In this document: positions 1 to 41,132 of the stretch, piece by piece
Numbering within the stretch: the first letter of the stretch is position 1
Layout: the number at the start of each line of letters is the position of its first letter
IMG/VR virus record: IMGVR_UViG_3300025449_000020
Location: 1-41,132 of that record
Reading direction: 5' to 3' (one strand)
Length of the DNA stretch: 41,132 nucleotides
Source of the DNA: a virus
Notes under the pieces: model-generated
Told to the model about the DNA's origin: nothing
The model's database searches: none
What the model saw: only the letters and a program-made list of their open reading frames with translations
Program-made: the position numbers and the translations under genes

Positions 1-567
1 GAGGCCAGTGCCTCCTTGTCCTACCGCTAATGAACCGCTGCCATTAAGAACGGCTAAACCACTAGCGGCATTTGTATTATTGCCTAATGCAGTAGCTACA
101 CCAGTTCCAAAGCTAGAAATACCAGTGCCGCCGCGTGATACAGACAATGTGCCAGATGCCGCATTACCGACATTCAAGTTCGTAATTTGCGAGCCGTCTA
201 ATGCTGGTATCTTTGCATTGCTATCTAGCTGAACAAGATTATATGCGCTTGTTCCATATTGTAGATCAGCCGCTAATGCCGAGATAAATACCTGAGCATT
301 TGTCGTAACGCTAATAGCTGTCGTGCCGTATGTCGTGCCGTTATATGATTGCGTGACTGTGCGGCTTAAAGTTCCGGCAACGGAATTATAGGTTCCAGTT
401 CCAATTTCCCAATTTAATCCATCTTCGATTGTATAACTAACAACGTCATTGTTTTGCGCGCCAGCAGATGAAAACGTCTGATACCCAGCGACAGCAACAC
501 CCAAAGACACAGACCCCGTTCCCGTCGAGGTAATGGTCATTCTTGCGCGGTTATACAATTTAGACAT
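1..567 (-). CDS. Tail fibre protein, N-terminal part (runs off window start)
   Basis: An open frame starts at an ATG at 567 and runs without a stop to base 1, giving 189 codons. The protein is Ser/Thr/Gly/Asn rich, with fibre-type motifs such as the GGTG repeats near its visible end. The last complete codon is bases 3-1. The frame at base 41132 is in phase with it and has no stop until 40329, so the two pieces probably make one protein of about 456 residues whose C-terminus is an S74 chaperone domain (see 40329-41132). It follows the 137-residue gene by 5 nt. The role is inferred to be host-range fibre on the virion tail. The joined reading assumes the window ends are adjacent in the real genome. 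Confidence 0.75.
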   Translation of the reverse strand, partial: MSKLYNRARMTITSTGTGSVSLGVAVAGYQTFSSAGAQNNDVVSYTIEDGLNWEIGTGTYNSVAGTLSRTVTQSYNGTTYGTTAISVTTNAQVFISALAADLQYGTSAYNLVQLDSNAKIPALDGSQITNLNVGNAASGTLSVSRGGTGISSFGTGVATALGNNTNAASGLAVLNGSGSLAVGQGGTGL

Positions 568-572
568 TATGA

Positions 573-986
573 TTATCCGTGTGTGATGGTGCCGCTAGAC
601 AGGGTGACTGACTGACCAGAAGAAATGGCCGTCGCGTTAATCACAATGTTTGGAGAGTTTGCGGAAACATCAACAGTTAAACCGGTAACGATCACGTTGC
701 CGGAATTGTCTCTCAATTCAGCTTTGGCCGCTGTTCCAGTTGCAGAAGCAGTTGTCGTTAAAGGCGTGCCAGAGATTGTTAAAACGCCACCGGATACTGT
801 TCCTGGCGTAGTTCCAAGTGTAAATGTCGCAAGCACACCGGTCGCACCTGACAGAGCCGATGTTCCAATAACAAGAACGCCGGCAGTAGCTGTGCCGCTA
901 GATGATGCTGCAACCTTGCCAGCAATCAAATCAGCAACAAGCTGCATCCGATTGTTTTTGAGTGTTGATGAATAAACGACTGACAT
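573..986 (-). CDS. Putative minor virion/tail protein, 137 aa
   Basis: I recognise no named domain. The first 25 residues look like a short helix (LKNNRMQLVADLIAGK); the rest is Ala/Thr/Ser/Gly/Val rich and probably beta-structured, as in small tail or fibre-associated proteins. The start at 986 has a good ribosome site (GAGAGGA about 5 nt upstream). It lies between the head-tail adaptor and the tail fibre, in the same direction and with short gaps, so a structural role at the neck or fibre attachment is the best inference. No catalytic residues are evident. Confidence 0.7.
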   Translation of the reverse strand: MSVVYSSTLKNNRMQLVADLIAGKVAASSSGTATAGVLVIGTSALSGATGVLATFTLGTTPGTVSGGVLTISGTPLTTTASATGTAAKAELRDNSGNVIVTGLTVDVSANSPNIVINATAISSGQSVTLSSGTITHG

Positions 987-1000
987 TTTCTATCCTCTCG

Positions 1001-1696
1001 TCAAAAACTTTTACGCGCGGCGTTAAGTTTCGACTGAGTTCGCACAGCGCGATCAGCCTCAACCTCAATGTCACGGAGAATGGTTTGATATGCGCCTTCC
1101 CAAGTCTGGATGCGCTCGTCTGCTTTCAGATATGGCGCGGTGTGAACAAGCGCCCCGTATAGATATAGATCCGGGTAACGCGTTAGCGCCCAATTTGTCG
1201 TATTGCCTGTATAGATTTTAGGCAGGTAGGCATAATACCAAAGGTCGAGGTAAACTAACGCTGTCGTGCTAGGTGGTGGAAAAATGCGAAGCTGATTGCC
1301 GACTATAGTGTAATAGATCGGACCCTTTGCGGGTGGTGCGGACGGCAATATATTGTTGTATGGGCCTGTTGTTGTTTGCCAGCCTTGGGCAAGAACTTCT
1401 TGCGATTGATCTGGCGAAACGTAAGCCAAAGTGATCGTGTTGTCTTGATCCATAAGCTGATAGACAGCCAAGTAATCAATCGGCAACGGCACATAATTGT
1501 TTTGGACAGAAGCGATTGCGCGCGATACTGCAAGTGGATGTTTAACGCGCGCCATGTCACGCGAAATGCGCGATGTCGCCATGACCGTAAAATCTGGAAT
1601 AACAGACGTTAGATCCTGTCTATTCAACGTGTCTGCAATTTTATTGCAAAGACCTTGATAGTCCGGCGTAAAGACAGGATCAGCGAAAACAGTCAT
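1001..1696 (-). CDS. Head-tail adaptor protein (SU10-type phage adaptor)
   Basis: This 231-residue protein begins with a short segment leading into a helical region (LCNKIADTLNRQDL), followed by the mixed alpha/beta body typical of adaptor proteins that bind under the portal ring in podoviruses such as SU10. It is rich in Tyr and Pro in the middle (VPLPIDYLAVYQL; LDLWYYAYLP). The order portal, scaffold, capsid, small proteins, adaptor matches podovirus head modules. Its ATG overlaps the stop of the 109-residue gene upstream as ATGA, indicating translational coupling. Family assignment is from overall resemblance; the position is strong support. Confidence 0.75.
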   Translation of the reverse strand: MTVFADPVFTPDYQGLCNKIADTLNRQDLTSVIPDFTVMATSRISRDMARVKHPLAVSRAIASVQNNYVPLPIDYLAVYQLMDQDNTITLAYVSPDQSQEVLAQGWQTTTGPYNNILPSAPPAKGPIYYTIVGNQLRIFPPPSTTALVYLDLWYYAYLPKIYTGNTTNWALTRYPDLYLYGALVHTAPYLKADERIQTWEGAYQTILRDIEVEADRAVRTQSKLNAARKSF

Positions 1697-2198: not shown

Positions 2199-2232
2199 GT
2201 CTCACCCGTCTTGTATGTCTAGCAGATTTAAA

Positions 2233-2256: not shown

Positions 2257-2269
2257 CTGTCTATCTGGC

Positions 2270-3232
2270 TTATGCCGTCAAGAGGTTGGCAATCGTAGCG
2301 TGTGCGCGCTCAGTGCCGACAACGAGCGTGTATTCTACGAGCATCTGGGTCCGACGGCTGTCGCCTGTCTTTGCCAGAGGATTGCGCTGGAACGGACGCA
2401 GATAGCCAATTTTGGCGTATTCTGGGTCAATCAAATGCGCAAAGCTGTCGTCGGTAAAGCGGTTTGGAACAATGTCTAAATTTCCGAAATCGGACACGTA
2501 GACATCAGCCGCGCCAAGAATGAACGCTTGCTTTGGATCACGGTGATCGACACGGTTTAGTGCGATACCGGCAAACGATGAAAAGACCACTTTGTTGTGT
2601 GGACCAACCATCATCATTTTGCTTTCGCCGCCATTTGTCCAAAGGGACTGAAGCGCCGTCTTAACCATTGCTTCCGTGAAAGCCACGTTTGACGCAGCCG
2701 TCGTCCAGCCAGCGTTCGGATAGCCGTCGTTGGTTGAAGACATCGTCGGAGCGGTTTCACCGTTGGTGACGACGTTCGTGCGTATCCAAGCTGGGAAGCC
2801 AGCAAGTTTACGCGCCGTTGAGTTGTTACCAACAACCGCAGGCTGGTTCGCCAACAGGATTGTCTCCATGTCGCGCTTCAACTCGCGGCCTCTTTTAGCC
2901 AAAAGATAACTCTCAAGTGTCTTCATACCTGCCGTGTCTACAGCGCCAGACGTGCCAGACACGTTGATTGTCTTGGTCGAGATCTGGGTGTAGTTGCCCA
3001 CGCGGTTTGTAGCGACAAACGCCGTGTCTGAAGCGTCCGCGCCTTCGATTGCGGCGTTGGTCACGTCCGCAGCGGCAAGGATGTCTGTCTGCCACTCATG
3101 GTAAGTGTTTTCTACGCTTTCACGTCCAATGTTGGACATAAATGGCGTTGATGTGGGGCTGATATTATAAATAATATCAGTAAGATCCTCACGGACGGCT
3201 TTGTAGTTGTCATATCGGGTTACTGTAGACAT
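2270..3232 (-). CDS. Major capsid protein (SU10-type, HK97 fold)
   Basis: The 320-residue protein has the N-terminal signature of the SU10 major capsid family (TRYDNYKAVREDLTD then ISPTSTPFMSNIG), which builds the icosahedral shell. The central part carries the typical segment where a glycine-rich region is followed by GRELKRDMETILL, and the C-terminal part has the DVYVSDFG and PEYAKIGYLRPF segments. Length is normal for the family. There is no protease gene nearby and no obvious delta domain; a separate scaffold gene lies directly upstream. AGGA lies about 10 nt before the ATG at 3232. This is the best landmark for the virion type. Confidence 0.9.
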   Translation of the reverse strand: MSTVTRYDNYKAVREDLTDIIYNISPTSTPFMSNIGRESVENTYHEWQTDILAAADVTNAAIEGADASDTAFVATNRVGNYTQISTKTINVSGTSGAVDTAGMKTLESYLLAKRGRELKRDMETILLANQPAVVGNNSTARKLAGFPAWIRTNVVTNGETAPTMSSTNDGYPNAGWTTAASNVAFTEAMVKTALQSLWTNGGESKMMMVGPHNKVVFSSFAGIALNRVDHRDPKQAFILGAADVYVSDFGNLDIVPNRFTDDSFAHLIDPEYAKIGYLRPFQRNPLAKTGDSRRTQMLVEYTLVVGTERAHATIANLLTA

Positions 3233-3248: not shown

Positions 3249-4292
3249 CTACAGAAGAGAACGAATAGCCGCAGCGGCATCGTCTATGCGGCCAGTTTGA
3301 GCGAGACGTTTCCGGGCTTCTTGGCTCTGTCTAGCGCCGCGCGCGGCAGGTGCGACGACCGCTGTCGTTGGACGGATGGCTTTTTCGAGAGGCACGTCGG
3401 GCTTTGGTCTACGAGCGACTAGCTCGTCGTAACGCATTGCCTTCCAGAGCGAGGCGACTGCGCGGGGATCGTAGGCTTGGTCGATTTCACCATCGGAATA
3501 ACCAAGCTTTTTCGCGTATTCCCGCAACTTTGGCCTATCACGCTCATAAGCCTTTTCGTCTTTCCATGCCGGTATCAGTTCTGGGAGTTTCTTACGGGCT
3601 TCAGCCACAGAGGCTTGGACCTGCTTGATTTGCTCCTCAGTCTGCTGCGTCTGGACACGCTGCAATTCAGAAAACGCAGCATTCAAACGCCCAACTGCTT
3701 CCTCGTATTTGTCTTTTTCCAAGACATACGCGAGTGGGTCTGTCTCACGCAGGGCAGGATCTGGAGCTTTAGGCAGACTTGCTTGTAGCTGTTGCGCCAA
3801 AGCCGGGAGAAGTTGCGCATATTGCGCCCTTTCTTCCTTCACCTGCTCTGCTTCCGCATGAAAGGCTTTTCTTTCATGGGCCAGAGCTTCAGTTTTCCGG
3901 GTGTAGTCCGCCGTCCTAGAATAGCCTTTGAGCAATTCGTCTAGCGGGACTTGCATTTCCTTGCCGTCAACTTTGACGGTGTAGACTTTGTCCGCGTCGT
4001 CTTGCTCCGCAGCATCCTCGTCGGGTGCGTCGGTGGAGCTTTCAGCCTCGTCGCCTTCGGGAGCCTCTTCGGCTTCGTTTGACGCCGTCTCTTCGGCTTC
4101 AGTCTCCGCGCCCTCGTCTGTTTCAGCCTGCGCCTCAACTTCCGGGGGAGTTTCTACTGTCTCGCTTCGGGACCGTTTCTTCTGGTTGTCGCCCTCTTCG
4201 GCGGTCAGAAAACGCTCAAACCTAGCGGCAGCTTCATCGACGCTGCCGGACCCTTGGGGGCTTGTCGGCGCAGTCGCTGTATCGTCTGTCAT
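3249..4292 (-). CDS. Capsid scaffolding protein
   Basis: The 347-residue protein has a long acidic low-complexity region (about residues 35-100, mostly Glu, Ala, Asp, Thr). A short ordered segment (VYTVKVDGKEMQVPLDELLKG) and long coiled-coil stretches rich in Ala, Gln, Glu and Lys (about 130-230) follow, and it ends in a basic tail. Acid-rich, coiled-coil proteins directly before the capsid gene are the standard form of podovirus scaffolds, which guide shell assembly and are then lost. Strong ribosome site (GGAAGGA) before 4292. Only 16 nt separate it from the capsid gene. Confidence 0.85.
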   Translation of the reverse strand: MTDDTATAPTSPQGSGSVDEAAARFERFLTAEEGDNQKKRSRSETVETPPEVEAQAETDEGAETEAEETASNEAEEAPEGDEAESSTDAPDEDAAEQDDADKVYTVKVDGKEMQVPLDELLKGYSRTADYTRKTEALAHERKAFHAEAEQVKEERAQYAQLLPALAQQLQASLPKAPDPALRETDPLAYVLEKDKYEEAVGRLNAAFSELQRVQTQQTEEQIKQVQASVAEARKKLPELIPAWKDEKAYERDRPKLREYAKKLGYSDGEIDQAYDPRAVASLWKAMRYDELVARRPKPDVPLEKAIRPTTAVVAPAARGARQSQEARKRLAQTGRIDDAAAAIRSLL

Positions 4293-4843: not shown

Positions 4844-7291
4844 TTACGCTCCTTGGGCAAGTGGGTTCTGTGTTGCTTTTGCAACAGGCGACGGCGTTGA
4901 CGGGGCGGATGGCGCAGCTTGCGGTCCCGGTTGATTTGCAGACACGCCAATGCTGGTAAGCACTTGCGCAGCGGTTTGCTTTTCACGGTCAATTAATGTC
5001 TGCGCAATGTTTTGAATGTCTGGACGCGGACGGTTGATAAAGTTGAGAATACCGGCCGTGTCTATTGGCGCACCGTATTTGCCAGACATGTCTGCCGTTC
5101 TGATAATGACGTCTGCGTCCAGTTGATCGCGTTTAAAGTCTTGCTCTAGCTGCAACTGCGCGCGGGCCACGGCTTGGCTTTGGAGCTTGGCGAAGGTGTC
5201 GCTTTGGGCTTTGGCGAGTTCGACTTTGGCGAGGAGGACATTGGGGTCGATTTGCTGGGCTTTTTGCTGGGCTTCGGCTTGCGCAAGTTGTTGCTCCATT
5301 TCTGGGGTTATTGGAGTAAAGAAACTATCGGGGTTTTTGTATCCAGCCTTGCGAACAAGTTGGCTCAACGTCTGTTGATACTGACTAAGTTTCACAAGTG
5401 GATTGTTCATGCCCATAAGCTGCAAGATCTGCTCTTGCTTTTGAGCAATTTGACCAAGGAAATTCATTTGCTCTGCATCATCGCCGCGTCCTAACGCGAC
5501 AGAGACAGAGCAATCCATATCCTCATCCCACGTTGTCGGATCAACAGGCGTCCATTGTCCGCGTAGTCTTACTAACAACGGTTTATCTTGATGACGGCAA
5601 ATTAATCTAAGAAGTCCAGAGAATAATTGCTTGCATCCTGTCTCAGCAAAGATGCGCGCAATGATTTCAATTCGTTCCTGTGCAGCAGATATTTGCGCCG
5701 TGACCGCAGCTTTTGTTGTGCTTTGTAGCAGATCAGCATCAAGACCTTGACTTGCCGGGGTGACGCCAGTCCTCTGTGCTTTAATCTCATCCATATATTC
5801 CAAGATTGGCATTGCGGCTTGGCCGACAAATGGCGTGGATAAATCCTGCACAGCGCCGATTTGGCGCATACGAATAATCGCGCCTACTTCTTTGTTGAGG
5901 ACGTCATCCATATTGACTTGTCCTTCAACAACTGCGGTTCGCGGAAATATGGATTGCGCAAGACTGTCCATCGTGGCGCGCATGACGTGGGACTTGATAC
6001 GCTGCAAGTCCATCGTGCTATCTGCAACCGAATGTCCAAAGATTGTGTGGGGTTCGGGGTCTGGGCAGAACAATGCAAATGGCGCATGATCGACGACCTC
6101 ATGTTTTAAAACATAACAGCCCGCACCGATTGCATGAATGCAACGCAACTCAGCGATGCCGTCGCCGTCTGCGTCAATGCGCATATAAATCTTCATATAT
6201 TTAACGCGCATCATTGATGGATCTGGCGGATAGTTTGGCCAACCAAAACCGGGATTGCGTTCTACTTCTTCAAAGTTCCAATACCAATTCTCATCCTGTC
6301 CAGGTGCGCCATGTTCGCGGACTTCATCTTCGTCAAAACCCATTTGCACAAGTTCTGATACCGTGACCATATCGCGCATACCAACAAGATCGAAAAACTT
6401 GTCAGTGTCTCGCGCGCGACGATCAATAATAAAACACTCAGGAGGCAAAGCGCGAACGCGATATTTTCTTTCTTGATCGACTAAACGCACTTGGCATTTA
6501 TACGTCTGCACATTCGGCGGAATAACTTGTTCGGGTTCTATAGAAACAAATTGCGCATTAGGATTATTTTGCTGAAACATTAAAACGTCTTCTTCGGTCA
6601 ACCCCGAAAACTTACGTTCAATGACACGATCTTCGCTTTCAGCCCACCACGTTACAACGCCAAGTTTTTTTAATAGAGCATCTTTGAACGACGAATAAAG
6701 AATATTAAAACCGGGGTTCATATCTTGAAAAATAAAATTAATCGCGTCGCTTGCTTGCTCGGCATATGGAATTGCTTGCGCTGTTCGCGGCATGTATTCA
6801 ACAATCTTGTCGCCGCTTGTGAAGATACGCATAAGAGACGGAAGAATAGATTGAATTGTGTCTCTTACTTCCGTCAGAACAATTTGTGATCGTCCGTCTT
6901 CTTCATCACCAAACGGCGCACCTTTGTAATACTCCGCCGCGTCAATGCGCGCTGGCGCGACGTAAGTATCGACATATAATTCTGCTTGTTGAAAGGCTTG
7001 GTGGACGCGGGATTGAAACTCAACAGGATCAAGAGGACGAAACTCCGTTCGATTAGGCGCAGGAGATGAAATGTCAGAACTATCAACTTCCGCGCTCGTT
7101 TGAACATAGTCTGTATTTGTGTCATCGAGGTTTCCGCCCTGCCCGGAGTTGCGAAGGCTATCGACATATTTAGGACGCATACGGCGGTCCTCATCAGCAT
7201 CATCCAAAGCAATGGACGATCCCGGCTGCATGGCGCGCGAGGAATTATCAATTCCTTCAACGGGACTGCGGTTCTTTCTACGGCGAGCCAT
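4844..7291 (-). CDS. Portal protein
   Basis: This 815-residue protein is the head-to-tail connector ring subunit through which DNA is packaged and ejected. The family's features are visible: a disordered N-terminus, the YYKGAPFGDEEDGRSQIV segment near residue 115, the IQSILPSLMRIFTSGDKIVEYMP stretch in two adjacent parts, and a long C-terminal Gln/Ala-rich helical region (about 660-740). It ends in a Pro/Ala/Ser tail. The long form with a Gln-rich barrel matches podovirus portals with an extended C-terminus. The start at 7291 has AAGGA upstream and lies 15 nt after the terminase stop. Confidence 0.9.
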   Translation of the reverse strand: MARRRKNRSPVEGIDNSSRAMQPGSSIALDDADEDRRMRPKYVDSLRNSGQGGNLDDTNTDYVQTSAEVDSSDISSPAPNRTEFRPLDPVEFQSRVHQAFQQAELYVDTYVAPARIDAAEYYKGAPFGDEEDGRSQIVLTEVRDTIQSILPSLMRIFTSGDKIVEYMPRTAQAIPYAEQASDAINFIFQDMNPGFNILYSSFKDALLKKLGVVTWWAESEDRVIERKFSGLTEEDVLMFQQNNPNAQFVSIEPEQVIPPNVQTYKCQVRLVDQERKYRVRALPPECFIIDRRARDTDKFFDLVGMRDMVTVSELVQMGFDEDEVREHGAPGQDENWYWNFEEVERNPGFGWPNYPPDPSMMRVKYMKIYMRIDADGDGIAELRCIHAIGAGCYVLKHEVVDHAPFALFCPDPEPHTIFGHSVADSTMDLQRIKSHVMRATMDSLAQSIFPRTAVVEGQVNMDDVLNKEVGAIIRMRQIGAVQDLSTPFVGQAAMPILEYMDEIKAQRTGVTPASQGLDADLLQSTTKAAVTAQISAAQERIEIIARIFAETGCKQLFSGLLRLICRHQDKPLLVRLRGQWTPVDPTTWDEDMDCSVSVALGRGDDAEQMNFLGQIAQKQEQILQLMGMNNPLVKLSQYQQTLSQLVRKAGYKNPDSFFTPITPEMEQQLAQAEAQQKAQQIDPNVLLAKVELAKAQSDTFAKLQSQAVARAQLQLEQDFKRDQLDADVIIRTADMSGKYGAPIDTAGILNFINRPRPDIQNIAQTLIDREKQTAAQVLTSIGVSANQPGPQAAPSAPSTPSPVAKATQNPLAQGA

Positions 7292-7306: not shown

Positions 7307-9211
7307 TCAACAAATAGAAATTCGACGTTGGAGAGGTTTGCCGGGAACCCATGACGCCATGCGACCCCCGACCATCGCGCCACGTCCGGCAAATGTAAGT
7401 GCTAAAGCATCTGCAAAGTCTGGTGAGCGACGAAGACGTTTCTTCATATCCCCCTTACTCTCGACTTGCAGTTTTCCGCTTGAGGTGAAGCTATATTTTG
7501 GCGTGACTAAATCGGCCCGCAAACTCTCTTCGTTTGGGAGCCGACATGCGCGCTGGGCGAGAAAATCTCGCACCGAAATCCAGAGTTCGTCTCGTAAACG
7601 ATTGGCTTTTGGATTGAGTGCGGAAACTTCTGATACATTGACATCTCTGACAGGTAAGCCAAGCTCTCTAAGCCTGTCAGCCAAACCAGCGCCAAGGCCA
7701 ATGCTATCAACATTAATCTCTTCTGGTTTGAGTTGTTCGGCTTCATTGACTATGGCTCCGCATAGCGACATGAGGTCAAGTCCGCGCCACGATCTAAAGT
7801 GCATGACGACATTACCTTGGCGGACACAAAGGACAGCGGCATCGTCGCCAAAACGTGCGGGGTCAACGCCGAAAAGGATTGGTTCACTTGTATCGTGGTG
7901 AATGTCGCGTCGCATGGCGGCGTCAACAAGTTCGGCTGGGATAAGGGTATCATCATCAGCAAGAGGAAATTCACCCAGAACACGCACACGAAAAGCGTTC
8001 GAGAGTTCGCCATAAGTATCCTTAATCTGCTTGACGAAATCCTCTGTGACGCGTGGGGATGTGACGCAAGAGACGTGCATCGTCTTCCATTCCGTCGCCA
8101 GTTCATGGTGCGTCTTGTAAAATAAACCAGAAGATCGCGTTGGGTTTCCGATTAGAACCGTCGTCGCGTTGTGGCCGGACATAGATCCCGCCGCGCTCTC
8201 AAAGACAGCTTCCTCGACAGCACTGGCCTCGTCCACGATAAGCAGCACGTTATCGCTGTGGACACCGGCCAGTGCTTCGGGCTTCTCCTTGCTAGATGTT
8301 CGTGCTGAAACAAAGCTAGCTTCGGGTGAAGATTTGAGAACTATTCTGTCTGAGGTAATCTCAAATAACTGCCGCATGTATGCAGGCAATTTGTTGATCC
8401 AGAACTTTATCTCCGCAAACAGCGCATCATAAAGTTGCGGCGCAGTTGGCGCTGTGCAAACAACTTTTTGCGGATATCGCGTGATAAGATGCCAGATCAC
8501 AGCCCACGCGCAAGCCGTGGACTTGCCCACGCCATGCCCTGCCCTGACTGAAATTCTTCTCGCGCCCGATTGAATGTACGCCAGAAATTCTTCTTGCCAA
8601 GGATCGGGCTGCGCACCGAAGACATTCTTGACAAGATCCGCGGGGTTGTCGCGGTAGCGCAATACAAAATCGAGAAAAGGATTATCTTCCTTTTTTGATT
8701 GCGCTGTCGATTGCGTCGGCTGCGAGGGCGCAGACGCAGACGCAGCAGTAGAGGACGAAGACGAACGCGCCTGCAAAGGTGACTGTCGCGGCTGCTGCGG
8801 CGATGGCGATGACGTCGCAGCAGGTTCTTGCAATGTCAGCGGCGCGCATGGCGGTTCACTCCTGTTTACATTCTCTGGCAAACCACCAAAAAAATTTTCA
8901 AAAATGGATGTGAATTGCTCTGATGGGGGTGTGGGGGTTGTCTTGAGTTGGCTTGTTGTAATTGGAGAATTTTTTGGGCTGATTTGGACATGAGGGTTGC
9001 CGTCAGCAGCCGCGGCTGCGGTTCCTTCGGGGGGGCGGGGGGTGATTGTCAACGGCCTGTCTAGCGTGTCTAAGTCATTGTTTTTACTGCTAGATACTGC
9101 GCTAGATAATACGCTATTATGTGGTTGTTCTATATTAATCAATGACTTAGCAGCATTATTTAATACGCGTTCGCGCAAGACTTGCGGGTCTATGCTCTTT
9201 CTAGGAGGCAT
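7307..9211 (-). CDS. terL: Terminase large subunit with long disordered N-terminus
   Basis: The DNA-packaging motor ATPase and nuclease. Walker A is GHGVGKST (residues 225-232) and Walker B is NVLLIVDEAS (321-330). The RNase H-like nuclease begins at ILFGVDPARFGDD, and a late catalytic Asp lies in SPDFADALALTF. Residues 1-175 are Ser, Pro, Thr and Gln rich with no fold visible; the packaging core starts at about residue 177 (NPFLDFVLRYR). No Met lies between residue 1 and the core, so the extension is probably real unless a GTG or TTG start is used. The ATG at 9211 overlaps the small-subunit stop by 11 nt. Confidence 0.92.
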   Translation of the reverse strand: MPPRKSIDPQVLRERVLNNAAKSLINIEQPHNSVLSSAVSSSKNNDLDTLDRPLTITPRPPEGTAAAAADGNPHVQISPKNSPITTSQLKTTPTPPSEQFTSIFENFFGGLPENVNRSEPPCAPLTLQEPAATSSPSPQQPRQSPLQARSSSSSTAASASAPSQPTQSTAQSKKEDNPFLDFVLRYRDNPADLVKNVFGAQPDPWQEEFLAYIQSGARRISVRAGHGVGKSTACAWAVIWHLITRYPQKVVCTAPTAPQLYDALFAEIKFWINKLPAYMRQLFEITSDRIVLKSSPEASFVSARTSSKEKPEALAGVHSDNVLLIVDEASAVEEAVFESAAGSMSGHNATTVLIGNPTRSSGLFYKTHHELATEWKTMHVSCVTSPRVTEDFVKQIKDTYGELSNAFRVRVLGEFPLADDDTLIPAELVDAAMRRDIHHDTSEPILFGVDPARFGDDAAVLCVRQGNVVMHFRSWRGLDLMSLCGAIVNEAEQLKPEEINVDSIGLGAGLADRLRELGLPVRDVNVSEVSALNPKANRLRDELWISVRDFLAQRACRLPNEESLRADLVTPKYSFTSSGKLQVESKGDMKKRLRRSPDFADALALTFAGRGAMVGGRMASWVPGKPLQRRISIC

Positions 9212-10041: not shown

Positions 10042-10067
10042 TCAAGAAACCATAGGAAACAGTGACA

Positions 10068-11534
10068 ATGACAAACGAAGAAAGAACCTCTCTTAAAAGC
10101 GCGCTATCTCAAACCCTGCGCAGTCAAGGCAAGACCTGTCTTGAATTGACGGGCAAGGATAACGTCTCAAAATTGCATCAGCACGAATTGCTGTCTTTAG
10201 CGGCCGCGCTTGGCGTTGACGTAAGGACAGCAATAGCAATCACGCCGCCACAATTAGACCCAGCGGACGCGCCTATTGTTGCCGCCAGTCCTGTTTCACG
10301 TGTAACAATAAAGACAATAACAGCAGCGGACGGTTTCAGCGCGGACGCTATCCTTGCGCCCTTGGACGGCGTCAAGACAATCCTTGCGCCTAGCGTTTGG
10401 GATTGCCTGCGCAACAATGTTGCGTCCGTCTATAGCGCTTTAGACAAGGCCCGCGCTGATCTTAAAGAGGCGCAAGAGGCTGCGCCCTTGCGGCAGATTG
10501 CGCCCGCTGCGCCGGACGAACAAGCCGCGCCTAGTGTTCAAGCTTTCAAGGCGTCAAAGATTTTCAACATGAAAGGCGCGCGCCTTGACCGTCTCGCGCT
10601 GCCCGTCTGGAACGATCCAAGCGCGCCGCCTATGGACCTTGACTTCGTTTGGGATGAAACCTTATTGGCGGACCTCTTGACCGCTATAAACCGTCAACAA
10701 TGCGCGTGGATGTTTGGACCTCCGGGGACGGGCAAGACGTCTGCCGCAATGCAGATTGCTGCCGCGCTTGGCCGTCCGTTTTTTAGGATTGCTTTTGACC
10801 GCGACACTGAAGCGTCTTTCCTTTGGGGCGGTCCCGGCATTGTTGACGGCGATACAGTATGGACCGACGGCAAGCTTACAAAAGCCATACGGACGCCGGG
10901 CGCGGTCATACTATTAGATGAACCTACGGTTTGCCCGTCTGGAACACTGGCAACATTGCAGACCTTGCTAGATCATAGGTTTGTAGTTTTGGAGACGGGC
11001 GAACGCGTTGACATGGCGCAGGGCGTTGTTGTTTTGGCCGCTGATAATACAAACGGCCGCGGCGATAACACTGGAAACTTTGTGGGGACGGCCGCAGTCA
11101 ATGCCGCCTTTATGGACCGTTTCGCGGTAGGTCTTAGCGTGGACTACCCGGACGCAAGACAAGAAACAAACGCGCTTATAAAACGGACGGGCGCGTCTCG
11201 GACCTTGGCGCAAGAGGTCGTGCGCTTTGCCAGCAAGACGCGGCAGAAATGTAATTCTGGCGATCTAACGCAGGCAATAGGCTTTAGGCGTCTTGTGGCG
11301 TTTACTGGGTGGCTTTTAGACGGCGTCCCGGCGTCTCACGCCTTTAAGGTCTGCATTCTTAACCTTGCGCATGGCGAAGACGTCCAAGCCTTGGAAGTCT
11401 TAGCAGGCGCAGATCTTAACTTCACGAACCTTGACGCCTACGCGGCAGGCGTGACGCCACAAGAGACGCAAGAGATAGAACGCAGCGCGCGCGGTCATGC
11501 AGCGGCGCAGGCTTTTCAAGACGCAACCATTTAA
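10068..11534 (+). CDS. MoxR/CobS-like AAA+ ATPase
   Basis: The 488-residue product has Walker A GPPGTGKT (residues 217-224) and Walker B ILLDEPT (about 280-286). A sensor-type AADNTNGRGDNTG segment and a following Arg-bearing FMDRFAVGLSVDYP stretch are typical of CobS and MoxR ATPases, which form rings and remodel VWA-domain partners. The N-terminal 200 residues are Ala rich and hold a helical domain unlike host CobS, so this is a longer form. The start at 10068 follows CATAGGAAACAGTGACA; a GTG two codons upstream is also possible. The partner gene begins 12 nt downstream. No CobN subunit is present, so a role in cobalt insertion is unlikely; activation of the partner is the better guess. Confidence 0.85.
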   Translation: MTNEERTSLKSALSQTLRSQGKTCLELTGKDNVSKLHQHELLSLAAALGVDVRTAIAITPPQLDPADAPIVAASPVSRVTIKTITAADGFSADAILAPLDGVKTILAPSVWDCLRNNVASVYSALDKARADLKEAQEAAPLRQIAPAAPDEQAAPSVQAFKASKIFNMKGARLDRLALPVWNDPSAPPMDLDFVWDETLLADLLTAINRQQCAWMFGPPGTGKTSAAMQIAAALGRPFFRIAFDRDTEASFLWGGPGIVDGDTVWTDGKLTKAIRTPGAVILLDEPTVCPSGTLATLQTLLDHRFVVLETGERVDMAQGVVVLAADNTNGRGDNTGNFVGTAAVNAAFMDRFAVGLSVDYPDARQETNALIKRTGASRTLAQEVVRFASKTRQKCNSGDLTQAIGFRRLVAFTGWLLDGVPASHAFKVCILNLAHGEDVQALEVLAGADLNFTNLDAYAAGVTPQETQEIERSARGHAAAQAFQDATI

Positions 11535-11546
11535 GAGGGTAGACCC

Positions 11547-13343
11547 ATGTCAATGTATCAATATCAAGACGTGATTGACGCCTGCCTGCTGGCGGCGCAG
11601 AAACTATACAAGGCCCGCAATCCATATTGCCGCTTGCCGTGGCGCGTTAGCATTGACGGCAATACTGCGGGCATATTGAAAGGACATAGGGACATATCCC
11701 TATGTCTGCCCTTCCTGCCTCTTGACGCGCGTCTCACGCGGGATGAACGCGACATATGGATTGCCTATGTGATCCACGAGGTAGGTCATGCGCTGTTTAC
11801 TGATTTTGACGCGTGGCATAATGCAATCCGTGGCGGCATACAGGACATTGCAAACGGTCTTGAAGACCCGCGCATTGAAGGCGCGCTGATTGCGCAAGGC
11901 GTGGCAACAAACGCCCGCGCCATGCTTGAAAAGTTAACAGAACAAAAACTACAAGAGGCAATCACTAACAACGCCTATGACCCTGCGGACCTCTCAAACC
12001 TTGCCTATACTCTGGCAGTCTACGGGCGCATAAAAACCCTTGGCTTTGACCTGCCAAGCGCGCCTGCCCTGCCTGCCAATATTGACAGCGCTTTGGCGTG
12101 GGTATGGCCGCGCCTCAAAGCCTGCGCCGGGACGCCTGACATTGTTGTTCTAGCGCATGAGGTCAAGGCGTGGCGTGACGCGCAGCAAACCCAGCAACAA
12201 CAAACGCAACAAACGCAGGACGCGCAGGACGCGCAGGACGCGCCACAAGAGGCGCAGGACAGCGCGGACGAACAAGAGGCAGGACAGCAGCAGGACGCCA
12301 AGCAAGACGCGCCTAGCGACGCGCAAGGCGAACAAGAAACGCAATCACAAGACAGTGACGGCGCAAGCGATACGCAGGGCGGCAAAGATCAAGACGCGCC
12401 GCAGACCTCAAACGGGGAAGGCGGGAACAAGCTTGACGGCGCAGGCTTGCGCAAAGGCGATACAATCCCAGTGGAACCCGAATTGAATAAACAAGCTGAT
12501 GAAATATTAAAGCGCATGAAGGCGCGCGACGTAGTAACAGAATATGCAGACAAGCAATTTGCGCGCGTCCCGCGTATCACGCCAAAGCCTACGGAAAAGA
12601 CAAGACGCCATACGGCCGTAGAAGTCTTGGACAAGGTCTTCCCATCCACTGCCAAGCTTAAGGCGGACCTCACGCGCCTTGTTAAATCGCCCGCGCTTGT
12701 TTCAACGCAGCGCGGTCTTGCAGCGGGACGCCTTGACCGCCACGCCTTTGCACGTATCGCAGGCGGGCGCACTAACGTCTTTGCGCGCCGTCAATTTACT
12801 GAAGGCGTCAATTCTGCCGTGGCTATTGTCCTTGATGGTTCAAGGTCCATGCGCGGCCGCAATGAGAAATATGCCGCGGCAATGGCTCTTGCTATTGGTG
12901 ACGCGCTAGACCGCGCTGCGGTCCCGTTTGAAGTATCTCGGACGGGCGAACACCCACAATCCTGCATCCCGCAGATTGACATAATGAAGACCTACGCTGC
13001 CTCATGGCGCAAGACGCGCGAACTCTTGGCGAATTCCACGCCATACGAGGGGACTTGCAATCTTACAGGCGCGGCGTCCGCAGTAGGCCGCCTTAAACAA
13101 GTGAGAGGCGTCACGCGCCGCCTCTTGTTCGTCCTATCTGATGGGCAAGACAGCTATACCTCGGACGCGTGGAAACGCGCGCAGCAATTGTGGGCGCGTG
13201 ACGGCGTGGAAACGATAGGCGTCGGTCTTGAGTATGACGTCTCTCGGATATTTCCTGACTTCGTAAACGTCTTTGACCCGGACCAATTAGCGCGCGAGGG
13301 CCTTGGCGCATTGACGCGCAAGCTTAACAAGAACGCGGCGTGA
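11547..13343 (+). CDS. CobT-like protein: zincin motif plus von Willebrand A domain
   Basis: The 598-residue protein has three parts. Residues 1-200 carry HEVGH (77-81), a HExxH zinc-protease motif, followed by NGLEDPRIE with Glu and Asp placed as a third ligand would be. Residues about 210-300 are a Gln/Asp/Ala-rich linker. The C-terminal VWA domain has a MIDAS metal site: DGSRS from residue 430, a Thr in the EGTCNLTGA segment, and LSDGQDS. Bacterial CobT shares the acidic linker and VWA domain. The AAA+ gene upstream encodes the expected partner, so a ring ATPase plus VWA-metalloprotease complex in the cytoplasm is likely. Substrate unknown. A strong terminator follows the stop. Confidence 0.85.
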   Translation: MSMYQYQDVIDACLLAAQKLYKARNPYCRLPWRVSIDGNTAGILKGHRDISLCLPFLPLDARLTRDERDIWIAYVIHEVGHALFTDFDAWHNAIRGGIQDIANGLEDPRIEGALIAQGVATNARAMLEKLTEQKLQEAITNNAYDPADLSNLAYTLAVYGRIKTLGFDLPSAPALPANIDSALAWVWPRLKACAGTPDIVVLAHEVKAWRDAQQTQQQQTQQTQDAQDAQDAPQEAQDSADEQEAGQQQDAKQDAPSDAQGEQETQSQDSDGASDTQGGKDQDAPQTSNGEGGNKLDGAGLRKGDTIPVEPELNKQADEILKRMKARDVVTEYADKQFARVPRITPKPTEKTRRHTAVEVLDKVFPSTAKLKADLTRLVKSPALVSTQRGLAAGRLDRHAFARIAGGRTNVFARRQFTEGVNSAVAIVLDGSRSMRGRNEKYAAAMALAIGDALDRAAVPFEVSRTGEHPQSCIPQIDIMKTYAASWRKTRELLANSTPYEGTCNLTGAASAVGRLKQVRGVTRRLLFVLSDGQDSYTSDAWKRAQQLWARDGVETIGVGLEYDVSRIFPDFVNVFDPDQLAREGLGALTRKLNKNAA

Positions 13344-21513: not shown

Positions 21514-21526
21514 GAGGACTAGGACT

Positions 21527-34470: not shown

Positions 34471-34684
34471 CAGTCCTTACTAAATTGCCGCTGTCGTCCA
34501 CCGTGACGGCGTAGACAGTGCCATTTGGCGATTGAAGGAGTATTTGCGTTTGGATCGTATTCGGCCCTGCCAACAGGCTAATCCGACGTGCCAACAGCGA
34601 GAGAAACGTAGACATCCAAAGCTGATCGTATTGCTTTGGCGCTGCGCCAAAAGTCGGAAGGGGTAAGGGCTTTCCGCTTGTCAT
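34436..34684 (-). CDS. Small virion protein, 82 aa
   Basis: The product starts with a Pro-rich segment (KPLPLPTFGAAPKQYDQLWM), then a helical part and a beta part (ILLQSPNGTVYAVTVDDSGN). The TAATG coupling to the large tail protein upstream and the overlap with the next gene support it. I know this kind of short gene between the tail protein and the GNAT-like gene from podovirus genomes, but not its function. Confidence 0.65.
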   Translation of the reverse strand: MTSGKPLPLPTFGAAPKQYDQLWMSTFLSLLARRISLLAGPNTIQTQILLQSPNGTVYAVTVDDSGNLVRTVATRGTVQPPI

Positions 34685-36198
34685 TACCGTCTTCCGCTAT
34701 TACCAACAATATCTAACCGAATTTGGCCCAAACTCCAATACTGATCGTTTGTGGCTTCAATACGCATACGGTAATCCCGGCCGGTTGCGCGGCAGTCCAT
34801 ATAACCGTCAAGACGGGGCTGGTAGGGTCCAAAGATCGTTTCAGTCTGGCCGGGGGTATATCGGGTCAAAAACTTTAGTTGATAATTGTTGCTTGCCGCA
34901 GCCGCCGAGGAAGACACCATAGCTTGAACAACATCGAAATTGTCCTGCCCTTCCCCAAAGTTCAAGACAGACGTCTCGGCCCAGACAGTGCCAACCCGCG
35001 ACGCTCCATTATCCAGGTATCCGTCTTCATGCTGATAGACATTGTTGTCTAAGCCCGCAGCAATCGGAAAATTAGCCGTCACCGCGCCATAGGCCGCAGT
35101 CCGCGACCTTTGGCCTCTAATCCAGATATTCGCGTCGTAATTCCAGATCACATAGTTATTGCATTCGCCGTTAGGCGCATTGAGGTCTGGAAAGTCAAAC
35201 CAGAATTCAGGGAATGCGCCGTTCTCGTGCATGTGCGCGCGATAGCTGCCATAGAGTGGATCATAGTTTGCTTTGACGTCGCCAAAGATCGGGCATTGAA
35301 GCAGACGCACCGCGCCGCCGTCGTAGCGCCAAAAACCTTCTTCACCGAACCAAACACATTGCGCGCCGCCAGACGCGACAGCATTGGGACACGAAAAGGT
35401 TGTCGAGCCGAGTTTTTCCACGCCGTAAAAGAATGGCGCGCCGACATAGCGAACAAGAAAGACTTCGTGCTGGGTCAGCACAAGGACACCTTCTTTAACG
35501 CGCACCCCGGTAATAATGGGCGACGATGCTTCAATGTCGATATACCCGGCTTGTCCAGTTGAAGTGTTGAATGTCCAGCCGTTGTAATTTTCAAGATCCG
35601 ACCAAGCGATACGTCTAGGATTACCGCCTGCGCCCATTAACATAACGGCGCGTTCTGCCGTGACCGCGACAGCAAAGTTTCCTGTCGGAGCGTTGGAGGG
35701 AACATCCATAGCCGGAATGACGCCTGTTGTTGGCGCAAGGTGAAGCAAGCGTCCATCAGAGCTACAAACCGCAAGCAAATCCTGTCCAAACGACGCAAAA
35801 GTCCAATGGTCGGGTTTACGAAAAATGGGAGGATTATACGCGCGGGCTGTGCCGTAATTGTCTTCGCCATAATTTAACGAGCCATAGCCACCGCCAGACA
35901 CCGCCGTCATGGACACAAAGCCTGTAGGCGTAACGTCTGCAAGCGCGCCAAACAAAACTTGAATACCGCCTTCATGCCCAATGGCTGTCCATTCACGTGC
36001 GGAATTATCGCGCCATTGAAAAAGGCTTCTGATCTTTGTCGGCAATGCCTGCGCGGTAATACGCGTATTGCCGCCAATAGGTGAAATGGCTCCAGACAGC
36101 CATCGAACATTAGACGTGTCCCACCAACTATTAGGCGCGTCATATGGTGTTGACTGCCTAATAACTCCGGGCGAAATATTTACAGGGACAAACGCCAT
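34684..36198 (-). CDS. Large tail (tubular/stabilising) protein, 504 aa
   Basis: The protein begins FVPVNISPGVIRQSTPYDAP and includes WWDTSNVRWLSGAISPIGG. This is a hallmark of a structural tail protein widespread in podoviruses with SU10- or BPP-1-like modules. The body is rich in aromatic residues and beta strands, with repeated Trp-containing blades that suggest a beta-propeller (SLFQWRDNS, VIWNYDANIWIRG). It probably forms the tail hub or nozzle. No membrane or catalytic segment. Confidence 0.75.
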   Translation of the reverse strand: MAFVPVNISPGVIRQSTPYDAPNSWWDTSNVRWLSGAISPIGGNTRITAQALPTKIRSLFQWRDNSAREWTAIGHEGGIQVLFGALADVTPTGFVSMTAVSGGGYGSLNYGEDNYGTARAYNPPIFRKPDHWTFASFGQDLLAVCSSDGRLLHLAPTTGVIPAMDVPSNAPTGNFAVAVTAERAVMLMGAGGNPRRIAWSDLENYNGWTFNTSTGQAGYIDIEASSPIITGVRVKEGVLVLTQHEVFLVRYVGAPFFYGVEKLGSTTFSCPNAVASGGAQCVWFGEEGFWRYDGGAVRLLQCPIFGDVKANYDPLYGSYRAHMHENGAFPEFWFDFPDLNAPNGECNNYVIWNYDANIWIRGQRSRTAAYGAVTANFPIAAGLDNNVYQHEDGYLDNGASRVGTVWAETSVLNFGEGQDNFDVVQAMVSSSAAAASNNYQLKFLTRYTPGQTETIFGPYQPRLDGYMDCRATGRDYRMRIEATNDQYWSLGQIRLDIVGNSGRR

Positions 36199-36205: not shown

Positions 36206-37036
36206 TCACGTCCATGAAATATAAATAAACCCGTTGCCGCCGCCGCCGCCTGCTCTTACCGAGCCTGGGTTTCCACCTGTGCCGCCAGAACCTATTGATA
36301 TTGGAATTGTAGCGTTATACAGCGCACTTATTGCGGCATACCCCATAGTGCTAATATCAAAAATATATCTATTCTTGCCGCCCTTACCGCCTGCTCCACC
36401 ATTAGCTGCTGCATAAACTGTGTATGAATTTGGCCCTGTGCTTTGAGTATGATTTCCACCATTATCGTAGCCGGGTCCGCCACCGCCGCCAGAGATAATG
36501 TTTGCAGTATCTGGATTTGTGGCACCATTAGACCCTGCACCACCAGTTCCATCTGCGCTGCCAACTGCATATCCATACAAATAACTTACATAGCTTGTTC
36601 CACCTCCGGCACCACCACCACCACCGCTGGCGACAACATAATAAGGGTCGCTAGAACCGCCGAATGACGTTGAACCACCAGATGTGCCGGTATCGCCACC
36701 AGTGACTGTTGTTCCTGTAATATAACTACCGCTACCACCACCACCACTTGCGCCATAAACCAATACAGTCAAAACATTAAACATATTTGGTAATTTAATC
36801 GTCGAACCAGATGTGATGTTGTCAGAATTACCGGGGATTACTGGACTGCTACCGCCTGTCGCATAAAAGTCGGTGAAGCTGATTGCGCCTGTTGAAAAAT
36901 AGCCAGTGCTATTATCTGGGCGATAAAACAATGTGCCGCGGTAAGCGTTCAAATTGTTTCCGCGGCCATTGAAGCCGCTTGCGCCGTTGATGTCCGCCAT
37001 TGTGAGCGGAGGACGATTACCTCCATTGGGAAGCAT
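36206..37036 (-). CDS. Glycine-rich tail-tip/adhesin protein, 276 aa
   Basis: After an ordered start (MADINGASGFNGRG, then YRPDNSTGYFST) the protein has multiple poly-Gly runs separated by short polar segments (about residues 110-270: GASGGGGSGS, ASGGGGGAGGG, ISGGGGGPGY, RAGGGGGNG). Known phage adhesins with such runs form polyglycine-II helix bundles that recognise host receptors. The first 70 residues look like an attachment domain. TAATG couples it to the S74 fibre gene. Confidence 0.7.
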   Translation of the reverse strand: MLPNGGNRPPLTMADINGASGFNGRGNNLNAYRGTLFYRPDNSTGYFSTGAISFTDFYATGGSSPVIPGNSDNITSGSTIKLPNMFNVLTVLVYGASGGGGSGSYITGTTVTGGDTGTSGGSTSFGGSSDPYYVVASGGGGGAGGGTSYVSYLYGYAVGSADGTGGAGSNGATNPDTANIISGGGGGPGYDNGGNHTQSTGPNSYTVYAAANGGAGGKGGKNRYIFDISTMGYAAISALYNATIPISIGSGGTGGNPGSVRAGGGGGNGFIYISWT

Positions 37037-38430
37037 TACGCGGCCTCCAACTTAGCAAGACGTGCGTTAAGTTCTTTTATGGCTTCGATTAAAACGCCGC
37101 TTATGTTTCCATAAGCCACGCTAAGTGTTCCGTCATTTTCGTTGACAACCTGCGGTAATACTTCGCGTATTTCTTGAGCAATAACGCCTACCCCGGCTTT
37201 GTCGTCTTCAATTCGATTATAGAAAACACCGCGCAGGCGTTTTACGATTGCGACGGCGTCTCGAACCGTTTCGACGTCTTTCTTTAATCTTGCATCAGAA
37301 TACGCTGTCACGTTACCGACGGCAGTAAAATTTCCTGACGTGTCTGAATAAAAAGCCCAATTTCCAACGCTGTTTCTGTAAACCCCGGAGTTGGCACTGT
37401 TAGACAGGAAAGACCAACTATACCCGCCTGTGTTGGCTTGGTATTGGGAAGTGCTGTTAGTAATAGTTGTGACGCCAGATGTTGAGATATTTCCGCTAGC
37501 GTTTACGGCGCCAACAGTAAGTGTGTTGCCATTGAGGTTTATTGTAGTGCAACTAATTGGGCCGCAAGTAATGCCGTTGCTATTTGTGTTAAGCGAGCCA
37601 CAGCTTATCGTTCCGGCGTTTATAGTGTTACCTTGCGTGTTTATTGACGTGCAAGTGATTGCGCCAGAGCCGATAGCTCCCGTTGATATAGAGCCGGATG
37701 TTAAGCTATTCCCGTTTGTGTTAATCGCCGTTGAGCTAATGGCCCCGCAGTTAATTGCGCCTGCCGTGATCGTATTGTTCTGGGTGTTAATAGTCGTGCA
37801 GGTGATTGCGCCCGACCCAATCGTTCCGCAGGTGATACCGTAGCCGTTCGTATTAATTGACGTCGAACTAATTGTTGACGCGCTTATAGCGCCACAAGTT
37901 AGGTTATAGCCATTTGTGTTAATCGCGTTTGAGCTAATAGAACCTGACGATATGCTCCCAAACGACCCAGCGCCCGTAACGGCGAGCGCGCCAGACATAT
38001 ATACGTTGCCTGCTGTGCAGTTTAGCTGACCAGATCCAACATTAAGACCATTGTATGCGAGAGTTGTCGCACCAGAGACAGCGAGAGTGCTGGACAAAGC
38101 AGCCGCGCCTGTTAAGGCAAGCGTTCCTTGTAAATAAGAATTACTAGACACCGTCAAAGTGCTAGAAATGCTTGTCGCGCCAGTGACAGCAAGTTGTCCA
38201 GACATAGACACGTTGCCGCCGGTAACATTTAATTGTCCAGATCCGACGTTTAAACCATTTGATGGAAGCGTTATTGGACCAGCAAAGCTTTGTAACGTCG
38301 TAAAAATACGACTAACCATGTGGTTGTCTACGGTTAATAAATCCGTATTGACATGCGCGCCCCAAGTGTTCGTGTCCGAGCCAACTTCCGGCTGAATGAG
38401 GTTGTATGTTGGGGTATATGTATTAGCCAT
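37036..38430 (-). CDS. Tail fibre with repeat shaft and S74 chaperone domain, 464 aa
   Basis: Residues 1-60 are an attachment region (YTPTYNLIQPEVGSDTNTWG). The middle has serial repeats of an INTNG..ITCG.ISS type, about 20 residues each, which should form a trimeric beta-helical shaft. The C-terminal 90 residues are an intramolecular chaperone of the Peptidase_S74 class (YSDARLKKDVETV, GVIAQEIREVLP, then a Leu coiled coil). Such a domain trimerises the fibre and then cuts itself off at a Ser at its start. It is one of two S74 fibres here. Confidence 0.85.
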   Translation of the reverse strand: MANTYTPTYNLIQPEVGSDTNTWGAHVNTDLLTVDNHMVSRIFTTLQSFAGPITLPSNGLNVGSGQLNVTGGNVSMSGQLAVTGATSISSTLTVSSNSYLQGTLALTGAAALSSTLAVSGATTLAYNGLNVGSGQLNCTAGNVYMSGALAVTGAGSFGSISSGSISSNAINTNGYNLTCGAISASTISSTSINTNGYGITCGTIGSGAITCTTINTQNNTITAGAINCGAISSTAINTNGNSLTSGSISTGAIGSGAITCTSINTQGNTINAGTISCGSLNTNSNGITCGPISCTTINLNGNTLTVGAVNASGNISTSGVTTITNSTSQYQANTGGYSWSFLSNSANSGVYRNSVGNWAFYSDTSGNFTAVGNVTAYSDARLKKDVETVRDAVAIVKRLRGVFYNRIEDDKAGVGVIAQEIREVLPQVVNENDGTLSVAYGNISGVLIEAIKELNARLAKLEAA

Positions 38431-39503: not shown

Positions 39504-39510
39504 CTATGCC

Positions 39511-39672
39511 TTACTCCGCTGGAGCTTCTGCGGGTTTTAACGCCGCATTGGCCTGCGACTGAATTGTAGGAATAAGGTTTGCAACAAATTCATAAGGCAT
39601 TTTGCCTAGTGACTGCAAAACGACATTCCATTCAGCGACAGCCAATTCGATAGAGATTTTCTGACCTTCCAT
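39511..39672 (-). CDS. Small tail-fibre-region protein, 53 aa
   Basis: The ATG at 39672 overlaps the previous stop (TAATG) and the stop lies 7 nt before the repeat-protein start. The product is helical (ISIELAVAEWNVVLQSLG, then YEFVANLIPTIQSQANAAL) with a short Pro/Glu tail. Similar short helical proteins occur near fibre genes in phages, perhaps as fibre assembly helpers. No motif. Confidence 0.65.
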   Translation of the reverse strand: MEGQKISIELAVAEWNVVLQSLGKMPYEFVANLIPTIQSQANAALKPAEAPAE

Positions 39673-39998
39673 TAGTTCCCCCAAGGTAAAGCCGGTGACA
39701 CGACCGGCGGCATTTTCTGCGTAGCAATTTGCTGCGCAAGATTACTTTCAACATCCGCAACGCCCTTTTGTGTAAGCGCGTCTTTGACCCAGCCGAGGAC
39801 TTGCCATTGCTGCAAATCCTCATACGGCGTAAATTCGCCTTCTGGATCTAGGTCAATTTCCTGCTTACCCGTAAGCGTAGCTGAATGATCGCCGTCAACT
39901 GCATTGCAGCGCCAGAACACTACAAAGACGACATCGTTAAACCCGTCCTTCTCAGGATAAGCGTCCAGACGTTCGGCAAGCCAAGTGTAATTAATCAT
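39672..39998 (-). CDS. DUF7936-like small protein, copy 2 (108 aa)
   Basis: The ATG at 39998 overlaps the previous stop (TAATG). Its sequence matches the neighbour at 39998-40327 along its whole length: a NYTW..LERLDAYPE start, VVFVVFWR, a DG..SATLTG turn, TPYEDLQQWQVLGWVKDAL, and a final ending in LPW. The two are clearly paralogues by tandem duplication, with about half of residues differing. The family is common beside phage tail-fibre genes; function unknown. Confidence 0.75.
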   Translation of the reverse strand: MINYTWLAERLDAYPEKDGFNDVVFVVFWRCNAVDGDHSATLTGKQEIDLDPEGEFTPYEDLQQWQVLGWVKDALTQKGVADVESNLAQQIATQKMPPVVSPALPWGN

Positions 39999-40327
39999 TA
40001 TGCTACCCAAGGAAGCGGCGGACGAATGACCGGCGGGTTAATCTGATCCTCAATCTGCTTATCAAGCGAAGCGACTTGTGCAGCTAATGTCTCAGCGCCA
40101 AACGCATCTTCCAGCCAGCCGATAACCTGTGCTTCAGTCAGATCAGCATAGGCTGTGAATGGAGCGGCTGGATCTAATGTTACAGTTTGACTTCCATAAG
40201 TGTCAGCGGTGTGCGTTCCGTCTGTCGCTTGTCTGCGCCAGTGGATTTGGAATACGACTTCTGTATGTTTTTCGTGTTCTGGATAGCACTCTAGTTGAGA
40301 GATGATCCAGTTGTAGGAATTGCTCAT
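39998..40327 (-). CDS. DUF7936-like small protein, copy 1 (109 aa)
   Basis: This paralogue has YNWIISQLECYPE, EVVFQIHWRRQATDGTH, TAYADLTEAQVIGWLEDAFG and a C-terminal INPPVIRPPLPW. The first half should form a small beta sandwich and the second a helix plus extended tail. It lies right after the S74 fibre gene, with 1 nt between. Duplicates at this position may bind two different fibres. Confidence 0.75.
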   Translation of the reverse strand: MSNSYNWIISQLECYPEHEKHTEVVFQIHWRRQATDGTHTADTYGSQTVTLDPAAPFTAYADLTEAQVIGWLEDAFGAETLAAQVASLDKQIEDQINPPVIRPPLPWVA

Positions 40328-40328
40328 A

Positions 40329-41132
40329 TTAAGCTACCTTTGCTTTGAGTTCTGCAACTTCTGCGGCGAGTTCTTTAATCGCAGATACTAGCAACGGAAT
40401 GATGTCGCTATAATTTAAACCCAATTCATCTGGCTTACTATCTTCTACAGCTTCGGGTAATACTTTTTGAACATCTTGAGCAATCAAAAACGCGCGACGA
40501 GTTCCTTCACTATCTGTCTTGAACTTACCTATAACAGAGCGAAGCTGAGATATTTTATTCAACCCGTTTGTGATTGGTTCAATAATATCTTTAAGCCTTT
40601 CGTCAGACGCCGTAGTCCATGAAGTGCCTCCATTTGCTACATATGGCCCAGAAGTCCAACTTAATGCACTACCAACAATTCCAGTTGTCGTGCAGGTATA
40701 AATACGAACCAAGCCAGTGCTTTCGCCCAAAGAAATCATTGCTGGTTTTTTTGTTGCAGAGCCATAAACCCAACCACCACCAATATAAGGTGCGCTGGTT
40801 GTGTAATACATTTCACCTTCAGCAAAACTCCACATACCGTTTCCAGCTTTACCAACTTCAATAGCTCTGCCGGTGCTATAACTTGATGGTGTTAAACCGA
40901 CAGCTAAATTACCTGACCCCGATAATATCATTAAGTCATTAGGTGATGATTGCGATCCATTACCAAACGCTAAAGAGTAACTAGAAGATGTAGATTGATC
41001 TCCAAACTGTATGCGGGCAGTTACACCCGCTGATATAAACATCTGACCATAGCTGCTCGGATAATCACCAATATGAATTTTACCACTATTGGAAACGTCA
41101 AGTCGCGCAGATATTGTTGATGAGCCAGTGCC
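40329..41132 (-). CDS. Tail fibre, C-terminal part with S74 chaperone domain
   Basis: The frame is open to the window end at 41132 (268 codons including the stop); the first internal ATG is at 41042. It has a beta-rich fibre part and a C-terminal S74 domain: SDERLKDIIEPITNGL, FLIAQDVQKVLPEAVED, then LKELAAEVAELK-like coiled coil. An N-terminal domain is missing here. In phase across the ends of the window lies the frame at 567-1, which supplies the missing N-terminus and yields a normal fibre of about 456 residues. Confidence 0.85.
   Translation of the reverse strand, partial: GTGSSTISARLDVSNSGKIHIGDYPSSYGQMFISAGVTARIQFGDQSTSSSYSLAFGNGSQSSPNDLMILSGSGNLAVGLTPSSYSTGRAIEVGKAGNGMWSFAEGEMYYTTSAPYIGGGWVYGSATKKPAMISLGESTGLVRIYTCTTTGIVGSALSWTSGPYVANGGTSWTTASDERLKDIIEPITNGLNKISQLRSVIGKFKTDSEGTRRAFLIAQDVQKVLPEAVEDSKPDELGLNYSDIIPLLVSAIKELAAEVAELKAKVA

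Follow-up and report, generated by a model that had tools for sequence, protein, structure and literature searches.

Why does the phage in IMG/VR virus record IMGVR_UViG_3300025449_000020, which carries LUZ24/PaP3-type head and packaging genes, contain not one copy of GANTC, the word methylated by CcrM in Alphaproteobacteria? The window analyzed here is the whole of that stretch, 41,132 nucleotides long. A script count of GAATC, GATTC, GACTC, and GAGTC returned zero, and since this four-word set is its own reverse complement, the count spans both strands. The absence reported in the first-pass annotation therefore stands, although its figure of about 160 expected sites was overstated for DNA of this base composition, for which the prediction is 107.1 sites with second-order Markov statistics and 75.5 with a maximal-order model. 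Codon-shuffled genes, in which protein and codon usage were preserved within each of the 33 predicted genes (34,923 coding bases), predict 83.5 ± 7.0 sites, with a minimum of 64 over 300 shuffles (z −12.0). The Poisson probability of finding none is about 10^-36 to 10^-46. Each variant is missing in its own right (expected: GAATC 32, GATTC 36, GACTC 19, GAGTC 20).

The same annotation had held that composition was not responsible and that strong selection lay behind the loss, and our results agree with it on both points. All twelve one-mismatch words of GANTC occur at 0.93–1.27 of expectation (GGNTC 1.15, GANCC 1.23), and among the 16 palindromes of the form ab-N-b'a' only GANTC is absent, the second lowest being TGNCA at 0.66. 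In Asp/Glu-Ser pairs, the frame GAN-TCN would make GANTC, and 45 of 45 such pairs use the serine codon AGC or AGT, while TCN accounts for 534 of the 782 serine codons in the window (68%). Under free codon drawing, this outcome has a chance of about 10^-22, and because every pair is AGY despite the prevalence of TCN, selection acted on the DNA word and not on the protein. Every gene is purged, and the intergenic DNA likewise lacks GANTC.

A mutational or compositional origin, in which the methylated adenine of GANTC mutates or base composition suffices, is extremely unlikely. It would fit that the alphaproteobacterial hosts themselves have no more than about half of the expected sites, but the codon shuffles and the one-mismatch words rule out composition as the cause, and a serine change from TCN to AGY takes two substitutions with the protein kept, which mutation bias would not do. 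The loss is real and is the product of selection on the word itself. It has two features of restriction-site avoidance: a palindrome that is an enzyme target falls far below expectation with near-miss words normal, and the loss within genes is synonymous.

The window does not stand alone. Relatives were collected as portal protein homologues from viral contigs and genomes; a genome scan with the single portal query gave no match, and a scan with a portal alignment gave 21 loci. The ratio of observed to expected GANTC in 90 relatives is two-peaked, with 31 (34%) below 0.05, a sparse middle, and many near 1. At the level of whole contigs, six have 0–5 sites against 99–135 expected, and others have 112–151 against 92–156. 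In the window's portal clade (support 100), all 15 members, the window and 14 relatives, are purged. Its close relatives carry 0–2 sites each, and in Sinorhizobium phage phiM5, the closest isolate, the count is zero against 152 expected. On the portal tree the purged state must have changed 10 times, and well-supported branches force six or more of these changes, among which gains cannot be separated from losses; no label shuffle out of 500 gave as few as 10.

GANTC was also the most frequently purged of 32 four- and five-base palindromes in the 90 relatives (34% under 0.05). When degenerate sub-words were tested as well, CCWGG was purged in 22% and GGWCC in 13%, followed by GTAC in 7%. These runners-up are all words of known type II enzymes, and six non-palindromic control words were purged in no relative.

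The window is the nearly complete genome of a temperate podovirus. It is considered temperate because it encodes two tyrosine integrases and a repressor-like protein, and LUZ24/PaP3-like by its head module (matches to phrog_1216, phrog_1328, and phrog_3927; homology to PaP3 and phiM5). Membership of the genus Bruynoghevirus found no support: a megablast of bases 1–24000 against 50,697 phage records returned nothing, and the portal is 32% identical to that of PaP3. L003, a contig of 17.3 kb from a different metagenome, has 0 GANTC and spans both window ends with about 1.1 kb unmatched between them; therefore, the window is close to the whole genome. This near-identical contig's extra segment (L003 12325–13403) adjoins the tail fibre region, and identity there falls to 93%. 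The features are as follows.

1..41132, whole phage contig, 0 GANTC against 107 expected
2270..3232, minus strand, major capsid protein (phrog_1328; 54% identity to phiM5)
3249..4292, minus strand, head scaffolding protein (phrog_3927)
4844..7291, minus strand, portal protein (phrog_1216; query for relatives and tree)
7307..9211, minus strand, terminase large subunit (contains the GTAC site at 8576)
10062..11534, plus strand, CobS-like AAA ATPase
11547..13343, plus strand, CobT-like VWA-domain protein
13555..15876, minus strand, primase/helicase (AAA_25)
16034..17089, minus strand, tyrosine integrase 1
17241..17708, minus strand, repressor-like helix-turn-helix protein (marks a temperate phage)
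18139..18660, plus strand, RuvC-like Holliday junction resolvase
18944..20329, plus strand, SNF2-type helicase, not a methyltransferase
20644..21513, plus strand, DUF2800 exonuclease
21503..22078, plus strand, Enc34/Gp2.5-like single-stranded DNA-binding protein (most likely holds an NPPW match)
22768..24792, plus strand, family A DNA polymerase
26608..27525, plus strand, tyrosine integrase 2 (a closer match than integrase 1 to phiM5 and the G078 prophage described below)
34684..36198, minus strand, virion structural protein (phrog_3287)
37036..38430, minus strand, tail fibre protein with spaced direct repeats

Two arrangements in this small genome were recorded in passing: the CobS-like ATPase and the CobT-like protein adjoin (10062–13343), and a single phage carries two tyrosine integrase genes (16034–17089 and 26608–27525).

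Does the phage protect its DNA instead? PHROGs, Pfam, PADLOC, and a motif scan revealed no DNA methyltransferase gene in the window, in line with the first reading, although a very divergent one could escape these searches; the GANTC methylase of the phiLM21 type, for example, matches no Pfam model, and a Pfam screen can miss such enzymes. Two candidate signals were rejected. The NPPW motif match most likely lies inside the single-stranded DNA-binding protein and is hence not a methylase motif, and phrog_11801 matches the helicase only. We also found no support for the idea that, within the family, phages with a methylase keep GANTC and purged ones lack the enzyme: PF01555 was present in only two of 25 family records, both GANTC-poor. 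PF05869 had no match in these 25 records, in a screen blind to phiLM21-type enzymes.

The host is probably a CcrM-bearing alphaproteobacterium, of the Methylocystaceae or close kin. The host class to which the first-pass annotation had pointed is backed by phiM5, by a contig in a metagenome-assembled genome (MAG), and by a prophage in a CcrM-bearing genome. The contig, from a Methylocystaceae MAG, encodes a portal 70–72% identical to the window's and has one GANTC against 26 expected. CcrM is encoded in the same MAG (391 aa, N6_N4_Mtase and RAMA), whose chromosome has GANTC at 0.51 of expectation. Genome G078, from the same GTDB family and also CcrM-bearing, has an integrated relative at C7:206,268–251,936 (terminase 58%, portal 40%, plus polymerase and integrase). 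GANTC in this prophage is 4/167, compared with 37/117 in the flanks, and the longest GANTC-free run is 22.7 kb, compared with 3.4 kb outside. The prophage (L143–L144, L178–L179) is nearly free of both GANTC and CCWGG and forms a visible hole in the chromosome's site map. Of the 298 genomes from the candidate host family, 290 carry CcrM.

A wider comparison separates host classes. Phages and prophages of Alphaproteobacteria have a median GANTC ratio of 0.39 (n = 20) and those of other hosts at least 0.86 (n = 6), with no overlap (Mann–Whitney p 9e-6, uncorrected for kinship); some of the stretches are partial or include host flanks, and Erwinia L1 is among the non-alphaproteobacterial controls. 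The alphaproteobacterial phages from outside the family were hand-picked, not drawn at random, and 16–20 kb of each was counted. Mesorhizobium phage Lo5R7ANS, in which a BglII-type endonuclease adjoins an MT-A70 methylase (L189 7233–8502), is low in GANTC (5/58).

GANTC is not the only word avoided. In the window, observed over expected counts are 2/66.6 for GTAC (sites 8576 and 30863), 9/59.2 for CCWGG, 91/155 for GGCC, and 1/24 for GGCGCC, and of the 64 six-base palindromes, which together count 482 against 818 expected, 28 do not occur. The earlier annotation had missed the GTAC and CCWGG deficits and the absent six-base palindromes. GATC is not depleted. Depletion of several words is what exposure to type II restriction usually leaves behind. 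The close relatives all avoid GTAC, and CCWGG avoidance is intermittent among them. RsaI, which cuts GTAC, originates from an alphaproteobacterium. Elsewhere, Methylophilales phage Venkman (L026) has no GATC, CCWGG, or GGCC (99, 35, and 21 expected), and its GANTC is normal.

Such exposure might suggest that the missing GANTC is a relic of a past classical HinfI-type restriction–modification system, now rare or lost, or persisting in unsampled hosts. Avoidance is thought to outlast the causative restriction system in bacterial genomes (PMC4687349), the GTAC and CCWGG deficits show that type II enzymes were met broadly, and all close relatives have 0–2 GANTC sites. However, zero in many separate lineages demands a pressure that is ongoing or very widespread, and no M.HinfI-like second gene was found among the 298 family genomes. 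We consider a relic improbable.

The explanation that we favor, as on balance probable if only narrowly, is that hosts with CcrM contain a restriction-like nuclease that cleaves GANTC when it is unmethylated, and that the phage deleted the targets rather than carry a methyltransferase. The lineage would have met such a nuclease often and for a long time, with the host DNA shielded by CcrM or by a cognate methylase. Every unmethylated site in entering or newly copied phage DNA could then be cut, at a fitness cost regardless of its position, and synonymous change would eliminate all sites; target deletion would thus substitute for a GANTC methyltransferase of the kind encoded by other phages of Alphaproteobacteria. 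We infer both the nuclease as agent and CcrM as the host's cover. The loss in all genes and between them, the recoded dipeptides, and the exact zero imply a price per site wherever it is located, which cleavage fits. A nuclease for methylated GANTC is excluded because it would cut the CcrM-bearing host itself.

The first-pass annotation had offered either escape from restriction or avoidance of CcrM-dependent control. The extension of the loss everywhere, to an exact zero, tilts the choice toward a cost per site such as cleavage. Under the second possibility, the phage would gain freedom from cell-cycle-timed host methylation in transcription or replication, or would avoid titrating CcrM or GcrA. 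The hosts do carry CcrM, GANTC is the word most purged in the family independently of general palindrome avoidance, and in alphaproteobacterial genomes, too, GANTC reaches at most half of its expected count (also PMC3973325). Nevertheless, control would need only promoters to be cleared, whereas the purge takes in the coding sequence of each gene and dipeptides are recoded. Selection against titration weakens when sites are few, so an exact zero is not expected from it. Hosts enrich GANTC between genes (PMC3973325), where the window has none, and other phages of CcrM-bearing hosts retain 0.4–0.8. We therefore regard avoidance of host control as rather unlikely.

Several observations weigh against the cleavage of unmethylated GANTC as the cause. 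No GANTC nuclease was identified, in a search that covered the methylase half only, solitary nucleases not being searchable. The 45 multi-hit genomes (of the 298 in the host family) contained no second full-length CcrM/M.HinfI-like gene; their extra hits are either fragmentary or remote N6/N4 methylases that lack the RAMA part. Pelagibacter phage HTVC106P (0.82) and Caulobacter phage Cr30 (0.84) keep GANTC, and therefore CcrM-bearing hosts do not always exert such pressure. Two purged contigs belong to an Opitutae MAG (L112) and a Xylophilus MAG (L118), neither of which has a RAMA/CcrM hit; perhaps they are misbinned, or GANTC pressure extends beyond Alphaproteobacteria. The link of the window to its presumed host comes through its relatives and the one MAG contig. 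Finally, the purging of GANTC shows no significant correlation with a general avoidance of six-base palindromes (rho 0.25, p 0.24). It is therefore a separate trait, and general palindrome avoidance was rejected as its entire cause.

Phage avoidance of restriction sites is already known (PMC4687349), and the window resembles it in that type II palindromes were lost synonymously with no protective phage gene. It differs in that the loss is total, concerns a fourfold-degenerate five-base word, and recurs in the family, and in that the word belongs to an orphan regulatory methyltransferase with no partner nuclease identified. In CcrM-bearing orders, GANTC is depleted twofold or more and is enriched in intergenic DNA (PMC3973325); Ensifer, too, has fewer sites than expected (PMC8725594). 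The word and the direction are the same there, but those genomes keep about half or fewer of their sites, enriched intergenically, whereas the phage keeps none.

GANTC methylases are frequent in alphaproteobacterial phages (PMC5537653, PMC7139368, PMC3925955). phiLM21, phi2LM21, phi3LM21, and vB_OspM_OC (PMC5537653, PMC7139368) share the word and the host class with the window, and plausibly the pressure; unlike it, they methylate GANTC, whereas the window phage deletes it and has no methyltransferase that we could find. phiLM21 partly combines methylase and depletion, at 0.17 in the stretch tested. phiM5 (MF074189) has the same head module, an integrase, and a repressor-like gene and also lacks GANTC. 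It differs in its portal (48% identical) and in purging neither GTAC (29/66) nor GGCGCC (83/51). We found no report in the open literature of wholly GANTC-free phages or of repeated purging, in a search outside which the phiM5 genome paper lay. Within the papers searched, such a complete and repeated loss of the CcrM word seems not to have been described.

CcrM is usually treated as an orphan, regulatory methyltransferase. That phages of its hosts have lost its word completely and more than once indicates a cost of unmethylated GANTC in these cells and points to an unrecognized GANTC-directed defence, or to some other cost, which can be tested with cultured phiM5 and its 0 sites. A broader proposal, which we offer as a speculation and consider doubtful, is that Alphaproteobacteria use CcrM methylation to label DNA as self: solitary nucleases, lacking a cognate methylase, would destroy DNA with unmethylated GANTC while the essential cell-cycle methylase shields the chromosome, and phages would have to delete the word or bring a GANTC methylase. 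For viral contigs, GANTC purging is an inexpensive sequence mark of CcrM-bearing hosts. A cost of unmethylated GANTC would also explain why many alphaproteobacterial phages carry GANTC methylases.

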